From Flagellatimonas centrodinii (GTDB lineage: Bacteria; Pseudomonadota; Gammaproteobacteria; Nevskiales; Nevskiaceae), in contig NZ_CP092104.1 of NCBI RefSeq assembly GCF_016918765.2, forward strand, positions 2,046,001 to 2,110,000: 64,000 bases of DNA. The letters are read 5' to 3'. Positions 13,327 to 19,628 of the stretch are shown piece after piece (position 1 is the stretch's first letter; each line of letters starts with the position of its first letter). The notes beneath the pieces were generated by a model, which was given only the letters and a program-made list of their open reading frames with translations, made no database searches and was not told the DNA's origin. The translations under genes and the position numbers were made by a program.

Positions 13327-14313
13327 TCAGGCTGCCACGGTGTGCAGCACGCCCTCGGCCTGCTGGTCGGCGTGGTAGCTGGATCGCACCATCGGGCCGC
13401 TGGCGACATGGGAGAAGCCCATTTTCTCGCCGATCACACGCAGACGGTCGAACTCGTCAGGATGAACGAACCGCGCGACCGGAAGGTGGTGACGACTGGG
13501 CTGCAGGTATTGGCCCAGGGTCAGCATGTCGACCCCATGGGCACGAAGGTCCCGCATCACCTGCTCGATCTCCTCGATCTCTTCGCCGAGCCCAAGCATC
13601 AGGCCCGATTTGGTCGGAACCGCAGGGTGCAACCCCTTGAACCGCTCCAGCAGGTCCAGGCTCCAGTCGTAGTCGGAGCCGGGACGCGCCTGGCGATAGA
13701 GGCGCGGCACGGTTTCGAGGTTGTGATTGAAGACGTCCGGGGGGGCATCACGGAAGATGGTCAGCGCCGGGTCCATGCGGCCGCGGAAATCGGGGACCAG
13801 CACCTCGATCACCAGCGAGGGCGACAATACCCGCGCCTCGCGGATACAGGCAGCGAAATGGCCGGCGCCACCGTCGAGCAGGTCGTCGCGGTCGACGCTG
13901 GTGATGACCACGTAGCGCAGGCGCATGTCACGAATGGTGCGGGCCAGCTTGAGCGGCTCGTCGGCATCCAACGGATTGGGGCGGCCGTGGGCGACGTCGC
14001 AGAATGGACAGCGACGGGTGCAGATGGCGCCCATGATCATGAAAGTGGCGGTGCCCTTGCTGAAACACTCGCCGAGGTTGGGGCAGCTCGCCTCCTCACA
14101 GACGGTGTGGAGGTCATTGTCGCGGAGGGCGGCCTTGATCCGCTGAACTTCGCTGGCATCGCCGAGCTTGGCGCGAATCCAGTTCGGTTTGCGCGGCGCG
14201 CTGACGGTGGCCTCGATCTTCACCGGGATGCGCGCCATCTTGTCGGCACCGCGAAGCTTCTCGCCCGCGATCAGCGGTGCAGGGCGGCGGGATGGCGGCG
14301 TGGGTTCGGACAT
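13327..14313 (-). CDS. lipA: Lipoyl synthase LipA
   Basis: This radical SAM enzyme inserts two sulfurs into protein-bound octanoyl groups to make lipoate. The 328-residue protein contains both cluster motifs: [12 protein letters not shown] for the auxiliary sacrificial cluster and CTRRCPFCD for the SAM-binding cluster. The C-terminal RSSYHADQ motif, carrying the serine ligand, is also present. lipB is not adjacent in this window. A TACACT -10-like element on the minus strand (14344-14349) lies about 30 bases upstream. Confidence 0.95.
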
Positions 14314-14364: not shown

Positions 14365-15156
14365 TCAAGCAGTGAGATGGCGGCGGACTCGCCGGGTTGC
14401 CGGCGTCGCCTCGGCTGACGGTTGCGGTTCTGCCAGACCTGGATGCAAGCGTTGGCGAATCGCCGCTTCGGCGCTGGCGGCGAGCTCGTCGCGACCCAAT
14501 TCGGGGTGCAGCGGCGGCTCGTAGAACAGGTCGAGCCACAGGTGTCGCACCCGCAACAGGCGCCAGAGGTGCCGTACCAGTTCGTCATCACCGACGAACG
14601 CGACCACCGCCGCACCGGCCGCCGGCGATCCGTATCGCAGGGTGACGGGTTGCACCGGCCGTTGGGCCTCCACGGCTGCCGAGAACAGTCGCGGGTGGAA
14701 CGGCAGGACGTCGACGCCGCGAGTCGTGGTTCCCTCCGGAAACACGGTAACGGTGCCGCCGCCTTGCAGAAACGGGGTCAACCGCGCCAGCAACGGCCGC
14801 GACCCGCCCGTGCCCCGTCGAATGTAGAAGGTGCCGATGGCATCGGCCAGCCAGCCCGCCACCGGCCAGGTTTGCACTTCAGATTTGGCAACGAAGCGGG
14901 TCGGCTGGCTGGCGATCAGGCCGAAGATGTCAACCCAGGACACATGGTTGGCCACCACCAGGTGGCCGCCGGTGCACGGCTGTCCGTGGACCCGCAGACG
15001 AATCCCCAGAATTCGCAACAGGTGTCGGGCCCAGCGTTGGCCGATACGCTCGGGCGAGAGTCGGCGGCCGCCTTCAATGCCGAGCACAACGCAGAGCAGC
15101 AACCCCAGCAGCAGATGCGCCAGCAGCCACGGCAGGCGAAACGCACGCAGGAGCAT
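14365..15156 (-). CDS. olsA: Lyso-ornithine lipid O-acyltransferase OlsA (PlsC family)
   Basis: The 263-residue membrane-associated acyltransferase has an N-terminal hydrophobic segment (residues 5-26), the catalytic NHVSWVD box (HX4D) and the FPEGTTT phosphate-binding motif of the PlsC family. On its own this could be a generic 1-acylglycerol-3-phosphate acyltransferase. The gene starts four bases after olsB, which makes OlsA, adding the second acyl chain to lyso-ornithine lipid, the more specific reading. Both genes would be driven by the Pho box at 15990-16029. Confidence 0.8.
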   Translation of the reverse strand: MLLRAFRLPWLLAHLLLGLLLCVVLGIEGGRRLSPERIGQRWARHLLRILGIRLRVHGQPCTGGHLVVANHVSWVDIFGLIASQPTRFVAKSEVQTWPVAGWLADAIGTFYIRRGTGGSRPLLARLTPFLQGGGTVTVFPEGTTTRGVDVLPFHPRLFSAAVEAQRPVQPVTLRYGSPAAGAAVVAFVGDDELVRHLWRLLRVRHLWLDLFYEPPLHPELGRDELAASAEAAIRQRLHPGLAEPQPSAEATPATRRVRRHLTA

Positions 15157-15160
15157 GATC

Positions 15161-15946
15161 TCAGGCGGCCAGTGACGTCGGTTCGGCGGCGGTGGTCTCG
15201 CGGCCGAGGAAGTGGCGGGCGTAGCGCGGATTCAATTCCGACACGTCGAGCAGCATGAAGACATCGGCGCAGTTGAAGTCGCGATCCCAGTACGGCTCGC
15301 CACAGGCTTTGGCACCCAGTGACACATAGGCCTTGAGCAGCGGTGGCAGGCGCGTCTTGTCGGTGGGGCGGTGGTCAGCGGCCGGCAGGCGGATGTAAGG
15401 CCGTACCCGTTGGTACTCCGGCGCCAGGTACTTGCCGCGAATCTGATTGAGGATGGCGTGGGCGCTGCTACCACCGTCCTCGAGACCGATGCTGGCGCAG
15501 CCGAAGCAATAGTCGAAGCCATGACCAGTGATATAGGCGGCGATGCCCTGCCACAGGGTGGCAATGGCGGCACCCCCTCGGTATTCCGCATCGACACAGG
15601 TCCGACCGATCTCCATGACCCGGCCTGGCAGACTGTCGACCATGGCGAGATCGAATTCGCCCGAGGAATAGAAGCCACCCGCGTGCGGAGCCTGATCATC
15701 GGTAAGGATGCGGGTACAGGCGATCACCTCACCACTGAGGGTGTCGCGCACCATCAGGTGCCGACAAAAGCGATCGTACTGGTCGCAGTCGATGCCGTCG
15801 CCCTTCAATTGGGCGCCGAGCTCCCCGGCGAAGATGCGATAGCGCAGCCGCTGGGTCTCAAGCACCTCGGCGGCAGTCTGCGCGAAGCTGACCTCGAAGC
15901 GGGCACGGGGCGTAGCGGTGAACGGTGATTCGACGATGGCGGACAT
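15161..15946 (-). CDS. olsB: L-ornithine N-alpha-acyltransferase OlsB
   Basis: The 261-residue GNAT-type protein has the hallmarks of OlsB/hemolysin-like acyltransferases: RLRYRIFAGELGA near the N-terminus, VMEIGRTCVDAEYRGG and a Cys-rich FDYCFGCASIGLEDGG stretch. It transfers a 3-hydroxyacyl chain from ACP to ornithine, the first step of ornithine lipid synthesis. The start is the ATG at 15946 with GGAG seven bases upstream; the longer frame runs through the Pho box. It is followed by olsA. Induction by phosphate starvation is predicted from the upstream repeats. Confidence 0.85.
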   Translation of the reverse strand: MSAIVESPFTATPRARFEVSFAQTAAEVLETQRLRYRIFAGELGAQLKGDGIDCDQYDRFCRHLMVRDTLSGEVIACTRILTDDQAPHAGGFYSSGEFDLAMVDSLPGRVMEIGRTCVDAEYRGGAAIATLWQGIAAYITGHGFDYCFGCASIGLEDGGSSAHAILNQIRGKYLAPEYQRVRPYIRLPAADHRPTDKTRLPPLLKAYVSLGAKACGEPYWDRDFNCADVFMLLDVSELNPRYARHFLGRETTAAEPTSLAA

Positions 15947-15989
15947 GACCCATCTCCGGTTGAAGATGGCGCGAACTCTATGAAGCCGC

Positions 15990-16029
15990 CATAACGCCAA
16001 CATGACGCTGTCATGACGGTTGCATGACA
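15990..16029 (-). promoter_or_regulatory. Pho box: four 7-bp direct repeats with exact 11-bp period upstream of olsB-olsA
   Basis: Read on the minus strand, the units are TGTCATG, CGTCATG, CGTCATG and CGTTATG, starting every 11 bases with 4-base spacers. This matches the PhoB binding architecture (repeats of CTGTCAT-like heptamers in 11-bp units). The block ends 43 bases before the olsB start codon; CATAGA about 10 bases downstream could serve as the -10. Ornithine lipids replace phospholipids under phosphate limitation in other bacteria, so the context agrees. Confidence 0.8.
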
Positions 16030-16068
16030 TGCGCCAAGCCGTGGGCGAGGGCCCTGTACCCGAACGCC

Positions 16069-17974: not shown

Positions 17975-19186
17975 ATGTCAGCCATCAAGAAAGTCGCGCT
18001 CGCCTACTCCGGCGGGCTGGATACCTCCGTCATCCTCAAATGGCTGCAGGACACCTATCAATGCGAAGTGGTCACCTTCACCGCCGATATTGGGCAGGGC
18101 GAGGAACTGGATCACGTGCGACCCAAGGCAGAGCAGTTCGGGGTCAGGGAAATCTTCATCGACGATCTTCGGGAAGAGTTCGTTCGCGATTTCGTGTTCC
18201 CCATGTTCCGCGCCAATGCGGTGTACGAAGGCGAGTACCTGTTGGGCACCTCCATCGCGCGACCGCTGATCGCCAAGCGACTGGTGGAGATCGCCCGAGA
18301 GACCGGTTGCCAGGCCATCGCCCATGGCGCCACCGGCAAGGGGAACGACCAGGTCCGGTTCGAGCTGGGGGCCATCGCCCTGTGGCCGCAGGTGAAAGTG
18401 ATTGCGCCATGGCGTGAATGGGACCTCAACTCGCGCGAAAAGCTGCTCGCCTATGCGGCCGATGCCGGGATCCCCATCGCCAAGAAGAAGGATGGCGGGT
18501 CACCCTATTCCATGGACGCCAACGCCCTGCACATCAGTTACGAAGGGGGCGGGCTGGAAGATCCCTGGTGGAGCCCGGATGAAGGCGTGTGGCGCTGGAC
18601 CACCAGTCCCGAGGCGGCGCCCGAGACGGCAGAGGAGATCACCATCGGCTTCGAGCAGGGTGATGCGGTGTCGGTCAATGGCCAGGCACTGAGCCCGTTC
18701 GGCGTGCTCGACACCCTTAACGCGCTCGGCGCGAAGCACGGCATCGGGCGCCTTGACCTGGTCGAAAATCGCTATGTGGGGATCAAGAGTCGCGGCTGCT
18801 ATGAAACCCCGGGCGGCACGATTCTGCTCAAGGCGCATCGTGCCATCGAGAGCCTGTGCCTCGATCGTGAACAGGCGCATCTCAAGGACGAGCTGATGCC
18901 GCGGTATGCCACGCTGGTCTACAACGGCTACTGGTTCAGCCCCGAGCGGCAGATGCTGCAGCGGGCGATTGATGACAGCCAGACCCGGGTCAATGGTGAG
19001 GTGCGGCTGAAGCTCTACAAGGGCAGCGTTCTGGTCCTCGGACGCCGCTCGCCGGATTCCCTGTTTGACGCCAACCTGTCGACGTTTGAGGATGATCGGG
19101 GGGCGTACAACCAGAAGGACGCCGAAGGTTTCATCCGTCTGAACGGTCTGCGCCTGCGAACCGGCGCGGTGCGCGACCAACGCTAG
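17975..19186 (+). CDS. argG: Argininosuccinate synthase
   Basis: ArgG condenses citrulline and aspartate with ATP in arginine biosynthesis. The 403-residue protein carries the N-type ATP pyrophosphatase loop AYSGGLDTS near the N-terminus, and further family motifs [13 protein letters not shown] and [22 protein letters not shown]. Length is typical. The last 26 codons and the following non-coding DNA form the first unit of a 157-bp tandem repeat, so the 3' end has been duplicated without altering the complete gene. Confidence 0.97.
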
Positions 19187-19563
19187 GTTGTCCGCCAGCG
19201 CAGACGCGCCTTGCGGCCGATCCCCGGCGGTGCCGGGGCCCCTCGGCCGGGGGCACGCTGCGCACAACCAGAAGGACGCCGAAGGTTTCATCCGTTTGAA
19301 CGGTCTGCGCCTGCGGACCGGTGCGGTGCGCGACCAACGCTAGGTTGTCCGCCAGCGCAGACGCGCCTTGCGGCCGATCCCCGGCGGTGCCGGGGCCCCT
19401 CGGCCGGGGGCACGCTGCGCACAACCAGAAGGACGCCGAAGGTTTCATCCGTCTGAACGGTCTGCGCCTGCGAACCGGCGCGGTGCGCGACCAACGCTAG
19501 CTTGTCCGCCAGCGCAGACGCGCCTTGCGGCCGATCCCCGGCGGTGCCGGGGCCCCTCGGCCG
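19107..19563. repeat. 157-bp tandem repeat (about 2.9 copies) containing the argG 3' end
   Basis: Units begin at 19107, 19264 and 19421, each with ACAACCAGAAGG, and repeat with an exact 157-base period; the third is cut off at 19563. Each unit has the last 26 argG codons with stop, then a GC-rich stretch with the hairpin CCCCGGC-GGT-GCCGGGG. Copies 2 and 3 are not attached to a gene. Copy 2 differs from copy 1 at three positions, all synonymous in the argG frame; copy 3 differs from copy 1 at one base just after the stop codon. Confidence 0.93.
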
Positions 19564-19628
19564 TGATTCACGTTCAATTCAGGGCGCCACTGTCAAGGTG
19601 AGTTCGTGACTTCAGGTCACCACACGGT

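Follow-up and report, generated by a model that had tools for sequence, protein, structure and literature searches.

Control of aminolipid synthesis by PhoB has been described or predicted in several bacteria, and PhoB-regulated olsB is, as a mechanism, already known and not new. The olsB of A. baumannii has a putative Pho box before it and is strongly up-regulated at low phosphate, and aminolipids there are reported to be PhoR-dependent (PMC11828411). For Burkholderia sensu lato, 21 of 43 genomes were predicted to carry a Pho box before an olsB homologue, and a refined matrix is stated to find olsB Pho boxes in 43 of 43, the authors' data not being shown (PMC7814305). P. aeruginosa has predicted Pho boxes before the plcP-agt1 and agt2 operons and is described as making ornithine lipid under the same stress (PMC8528852); in V. 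cholerae, PhoB is reported to control OlsF, a different ornithine lipid synthase (PMC12186959). According to a further report, the gene for PlcP, a phospholipase C that serves lipid renovation, often has a Pho box (PMC4796936).

The DNA analyzed here (the window, a whole stretch of 64,000 nucleotides from Flagellatimonas centrodinii) carries a predicted tandem Pho box before an olsB-olsA pair. A Pho box is likewise predicted before A. baumannii olsB, but the olsA of that organism is described as lying elsewhere, outside phosphate control (PMC11828411), whereas here olsA stands directly behind olsB, and the four-unit array is a feature of the window's olsB. Burkholderia sensu lato shares the predicted Pho boxes before olsB; unlike the present organism these are beta-proteobacteria, their boxes were sought with an 18-bp matrix, and 5 of the 21 species are reported to make ornithine lipids constitutively (PMC7814305). 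What is new is the conservation of the array across Nevskiaceae and its link to an uncharacterised glycosyltransferase. In the literature searched, no paper joined Solimonas, Nevskia or Nevskiaceae with "ornithine lipid", and the Pho box predicts phosphorus saving by a membrane-lipid swap in this family of environmental bacteria.

The olsB-olsA locus and its predicted promoter

The features are given below in the direction of transcription, with their basis in parentheses.

16023..16029, minus strand: Pho box unit 1, TGTCATG (sequence, pattern scans, family column profile)
16012..16018, minus strand: Pho box unit 2, CGTCATG (sequence, pattern scans, family column profile)
16001..16007, minus strand: Pho box unit 3, CGTCATG (sequence, pattern scans, family column profile)
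15990..15996, minus strand: Pho box unit 4, CGTTATG, where the family profile is closer to TTCAACG (sequence, family alignment)
15975..15980, minus strand: predicted -10 hexamer TAGAGT, starting 16 bp after the start of unit 4 (family profile, E. coli phoA spacing)
15954..15957, minus strand: putative ribosome-binding site GGAG (sequence)
15161..15946, minus strand: olsB-type N-acyltransferase, PF13444, Acetyltransf_5 (profile matches)
14365..15156, minus strand: olsA-type O-acyltransferase, PF01553, Acyltransferase, 4 bp after olsB (profile matches)
13327..14313, minus strand: lipA, lipoyl synthase, 51 bp after olsA (profile match, spacing)

Read along the minus strand from 16029 to 15990, the four 7-bp units are joined by the spacers CAAC, ACAG and TTGG, in that order, and recur with an exact 11-bp period. 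They are close to TGTCAT, as in the E. coli consensus (CTGTCATNNNNCTGTCAT, as printed in PMC11828411). The array begins 39 bp past the stop of the preceding same-strand gene and its 3' end lies 43 bp from the likely olsB ATG. A search for GTYAT four times at period 11, with three mismatches or fewer, matched the window only at this array (in three overlapping registers); 100 dinucleotide shuffles of the window gave a mean of 0.01 matches, and no shuffle reached 3. Across the whole genome (3.6 Mb), YGTCAT three times with zero mismatch is found in only two places, the olsB array and a site before a pstS-type gene, at C1:2492156 (C1 coordinates refer to the window's own genome, beyond the window as well). 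With up to three mismatches the genome scan returned 25 rows, of which 4 are registers of one array, that of olsB, against 3 rows for the reversed pattern. The first-pass annotation had described the four units, their order, coordinates and period, and had placed them just before two ornithine-lipid-type genes; the re-read sequence and the pattern scans bear out the former, and the olsB- and olsA-type family matches downstream bear out the latter.

The spacing of the putative promoter resembles that of known and sister Pho promoters. The array would overlap the -35 region, and TAGAGT, identical to TATAAT at 4 of 6 positions, begins 16 bp after the start of the last unit, with transcription predicted to start near 15968. 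In the E. coli phoA promoter (NC_000913.3), TATAGT begins 16 bp after the start of the second unit; that promoter shares with olsB the 11-bp-phased units and the distance of the -10 from the last of them, but has two units where olsB has four. The organism's own phoX and phoB genes each have TAGCCT 16 bp after the start of a unit, the third in phoX and the second in phoB. Its olsB, plcP-like and glycosyltransferase promoters, the latter two discussed below, all have a hexamer at +49 relative to the first unit of an 11-bp-phased array; this hexamer is TACCCT for the glycosyltransferase, at the same distance as in olsB, and is poor (CACCCT) for the plcP-like gene. At the pstS-type promoter the fit of the hexamer varies with the unit that is taken as the last. 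A sigma-70 consensus scan gave no promoter at the olsB array, as expected if PhoB replaces the contact at -35.

Translation of olsB likely starts at the ATG at 15946, which has GGAG 7 bp upstream; an ATG also stands at the matching position in relatives, among them the loci L002 and L003. A start at 16030, given by the program's open reading frame call, was rejected, as it overlaps unit 1.

Downstream, an OlsB-type GNAT acyltransferase gene adjoins one for an OlsA-type acyltransferase. The best NCBIfam match of OlsB is L-ornithine N-acyltransferase (161 bits, cut-off 350) and that of OlsA is lyso-ornithine lipid O-acyltransferase (141 bits, cut-off 300), and neither protein passes the curated cut-off of an NCBIfam equivalog model. 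Names of the models suggest that they were built for two lineages, so that the low scores are compatible with activity and do not exclude it. The product is most likely an ornithine lipid, judging by these family assignments. Among 31 named loci of relatives, olsA lies behind olsB in 30, the exception being a burkholderial contig with 39% identity, and lipA is found farther along the same strand in 25, not always adjoining olsA. Since no terminator-like site was found between 12800 and 18000, and lipA lies 51 bp behind olsA, read-through from the olsB Pho promoter into lipA is possible; lipoate synthesis would then be tied to phosphate stress.

Elsewhere in this part of the window, positions 19103-19573 hold three tandem 157-bp copies; identity to the first copy is 97% for the second and 94% for the third. 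They begin within the 3' end of an argG-like open reading frame (17975-19186, named from its sequence) and extend past its stop, as though the gene's end had been tandemly copied.

Conservation in the family, PhoB-PhoR and sister sites

Of 58 family genomes, counting that of the window, 55 encode OlsB. Upstream of olsB, a period-11 three-unit array reached p<=0.05 against dinucleotide shuffles in 54 of the 55 regions and p<=0.01 in 46 (p values are per sequence and uncorrected, with a floor of 0.005, and the sequences are related, hence not independent). The mean best score was 15.7, against 11.5 for shuffles and 11.6-12.9 at nine other periods. Place and geometry of the array are kept in 53 of the 55 olsB-bearing genomes, representing 12 genera, at 131-160 bp before codon 20. 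In one genome (G030) olsB has no clear array at the usual place (p 0.11); in another (G034) there is a significant match, but it lies at the margin of the scored region, a long way from the common position.

The genus-weighted profile of 53 aligned regions is approximately YGTCAY, nTTCAY or nGTCAY, nGTCAY, TTCAAC and TTCATAGAGT, with several unit columns near 2 bits (L114 and L118 were left out of this column profile, and L094 was shifted by one unit by hand). The -10 hexamer, though outside the scored units, is conserved as well, with T at 100%, A at 99% and T at 99% (genus-weighted, 53 of 55 regions aligned), and TANA[GT]T stands at the -10 place in 45 of the 53. A control with the same scoring was run on named relatives, which include Solimonas, Nevskia, Hydrocarboniphaga and Polycyclovorans, the last placed in Nevskiaceae by NCBI. 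Scores of at least 15 were reached by 24 of 30 olsB upstream regions, by 0 of 30 upstream of olsA and by 0 of 25 upstream of lipA (L031, L174 and L175 left out). The array is thus kept before the same gene in relatives.

A cognate PhoB and PhoR are both encoded in the genome. PhoB (C1:3224574-3225245) scores 347 bits against the TIGR02154 cut-off of 296, and PhoR, whose gene adjoins, 379 bits against the TIGR02966 cut-off of 334; both fall below the cut-offs of the respective PRK models (304 against 471 for PRK10161, 358 against 390 for PRK11006). The DNA-binding domain of PhoB matches that of E. coli PhoB (1gxp) at 4e-42, and a 22-residue stretch differs by one change, D to E. A PDB search with PhoB at E 1e-60 gave no match; the search at 1e-20 gave full-length MtrA (2gwr) as the best by E-value, followed by three E. 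coli PhoB DNA-binding domains.

Arrays akin to that of olsB precede pstS, phoX, phoB, the plcP-like gene and the glycosyltransferase gene. The zero-mismatch site at C1:2492156 precedes a PstS-type gene that heads a cluster of a phosphate-selective porin and PstC-, PstA- and PstB-type genes, the PstC match being just under its cut-off. The phoX gene (486 bits to PF05787) has a weaker upstream site, with 3 mismatches, and the phoB box was spotted by eye in the upstream stretch and is absent from the rows of the genome scan. Architecture, promoter geometry, conservation in the family, the PhoB-PhoR pair and these sister sites together support the proposal, made in the first-pass annotation, of a PhoB-type Pho box at olsBA.

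The genome has further sites near other genes. The neighbors of the TGTCAT/ATGACA sites at C1:836446-841387 (L037, L044-L046) encode an OmpR-type regulator and a multicopper oxidase; the sites at C1:836446-836505 and 841360 are probably not Pho sites, and the group is probably a copper response box instead. At C1:2509522 (L041) a gene for a TonB-dependent receptor, possibly a phosphate-starvation outer-membrane receptor, stands behind a two-mismatch Pho-like site, and at C1:1412665 (L049) an open reading frame of at least 470 amino acids with no Pfam or NCBIfam match stands behind a three-mismatch one.

Proposed mechanism and alternative readings

The four units very probably form a tandem Pho box by which PhoB would drive olsB-olsA under phosphate starvation, leading to a phosphorus-free membrane lipid. 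From sequence we infer PhoB binding and activation, the head group, and the replacement of phospholipids. In the process envisaged, PhoB would be phosphorylated by PhoR during phosphate starvation, and PhoB dimers would bind the direct repeats head to tail across the -35 region, recruiting RNA polymerase to TAGAGT at 15980-15975 to produce the olsB-olsA transcript. The amino acid that OlsB would then N-acylate is most likely ornithine, and addition of the second acyl chain by OlsA would yield the phosphorus-free membrane lipid.

A different reader of the array is conceivable: another OmpR-family regulator that uses 11-bp direct repeats might bind there, and olsBA would then answer a different signal. 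CreB, for example, recognizes TTCAC direct repeats; unit 2 is TTCAT or TTCAC in many relatives, and the genome encodes further OmpR/PhoB-like regulators. However, none of 24 matches in the genome passes the cut-off of the CreB model, the best of the 24 is PhoB itself, and CreB was rejected as the reader on this ground; the sister arrays before phoX, phoB, the pstS-type and the plcP-like genes likewise speak against a regulator other than PhoB. We regard such a regulator as highly unlikely. The same may be said, more strongly, of the view that the repeats reflect chance or a purely structural 11-bp phasing, with olsBA expressed constitutively. That the 11-bp phase runs on into the -10 block (CTTCATAGAGT) would fit a structural repeat, and some Burkholderia with predicted olsB Pho boxes are reported to make ornithine lipids constitutively (PMC7814305). 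Against this, 0.01 matches are expected per window by chance, the array is kept in 12 genera with several near-invariant unit columns, and no such repeat was seen before olsA (0 of 30) or lipA (0 of 25) in the named relatives; we give this view almost no credence.

Another alternative concerns the product and is compatible with the Pho-box explanation, the two not being mutually exclusive. Here the box would be right and the lipid another, the OlsB-type enzyme acylating lysine, glutamine or some other amino acid. The family scores of OlsB and OlsA under the curated cut-offs leave room for this, the A. baumannii OlsBA pathway is reported to give both ornithine and lysine lipids (PMC11828411), and a glutamine lipid has been described in Rhodobacteraceae (PMC6298996). 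The best NCBIfam matches of both proteins are nevertheless ornithine-lipid enzymes, and we consider a different head group unlikely, though with a real chance of being correct.

A plcP-like gene and an MJ1255/VC2487-type glycosyltransferase

PlcP is an LpxH-like metallophosphoesterase distinct from LpxH. In the window's own genome such a gene, at C1:998096, is preceded by a three-unit array (one mismatch in the genome scan; score 18/18). It scores 45 bits against the LpxH model, and true LpxH, encoded elsewhere, scores 240 bits; by this description the gene at C1:998096 is a putative plcP. Within the family, plcP-like upstream regions reached p<=0.05 in 37 of 54 cases and p<=0.01 in 29 (G007, G009 and G013, with weak or fragmentary matches, were left out). 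Fourteen of the 17 misses sit in a single genus (g6), in which only 3 of 17 regions reach p<=0.05. When the open reading frames close behind plcP were grouped by BLAST to look for a conserved neighbor, 6 of 30 loci had a second plcP-like copy there, and no glycosyltransferase was common to the loci. These six family genomes (L126, L127, L131, L133, L141 and L146) carry the second copy directly behind the first.

The glycosyltransferase belongs to PF13528, and its best NCBIfam match is the MJ1255/VC2487 family, under that model's cut-off. The genome's own copy (C1:1726207-1727277, L183) lies outside the window, directly behind a three-mismatch site at C1:1727328-1727355 that was already in the genome scan before the gene was identified there. 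Of 58 family genomes, 54 have a PF13528 glycosyltransferase. Their upstream regions reach p<=0.05 in 48 of 53 cases and p<=0.01 in 42, five missing p<=0.05, and the mean score is 15.9 against 11.3 for shuffles (G002, at a contig end, was left out). Five such regions from bacteria of other families were scored as well: 4 reach p<=0.05, and the fifth, at L237, misses (p 0.24).

The four genes are found together in several arrangements. In G034, plcP points in one direction and glycosyltransferase-olsB-olsA, in that order, in the opposite one. In G030, plcP-olsB-olsA stand in a row, plcP without a clear box (p 0.73), and the glycosyltransferase is divergent. In G169, from another family, olsB-olsA diverges from a run made up of the glycosyltransferase and plcP, and each side is preceded by its own array: that of olsB scores 17/18 (p 0.002) and that of the glycosyltransferase 14 (p 0.014). 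The plcP at L233 lacks a separate box (p 0.16), as would be the case if it were co-transcribed with the glycosyltransferase ahead of it. The genes plcP, glycosyltransferase, olsB and olsA thus gather in distant bacteria under apparent Pho boxes. Among 229 genomes across the class, the glycosyltransferase (E<=1e-30) is present in 6 and plcP (E<=1e-40) in 64, and 5 have both (Fisher p 0.007, and 0.02 once the window's own genome is excluded, in a test run after the clusters had been noticed); the sixth glycosyltransferase-bearing genome, G095, 81% complete, has no plcP at E<=1e-40.

It is reasonably probable, with considerable room for doubt, that Nevskiaceae and at least one distant gammaproteobacterium possess a three-part, PhoB-controlled system of lipid renovation composed of a PlcP-like protein, the MJ1255/VC2487-type glycosyltransferase and OlsBA. 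In such a system the PlcP-like phospholipase C would remove phosphate from phospholipids, the glycosyltransferase, whose acceptor would be diacylglycerol, would convert this to glycolipid, and OlsBA would supply an amino lipid. PlcP-Agt renovation is similar in that Pho boxes are predicted both for plcP and for the glycosyltransferase genes (PMC8528852, PMC4796936), but the array-bearing glycosyltransferase here is of the MJ1255/VC2487 type (PF13528), a type tied to no lipid-renovation role in the literature searched; the two papers there that carry one of the family identifiers sought have titles on subjects other than lipid synthesis. The link could explain how PlcP-made diacylglycerol is used where plcP stands alone, and the common box and gene cluster suggest a testable function, diacylglycerol glycosylation, for a family named after two example genes. 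G034 also encodes, at L175 2394-3269 and thus near its cluster of plcP, glycosyltransferase and olsBA, another OlsB-type acyltransferase (PF13444), which is distant from OlsB at 33% identity.
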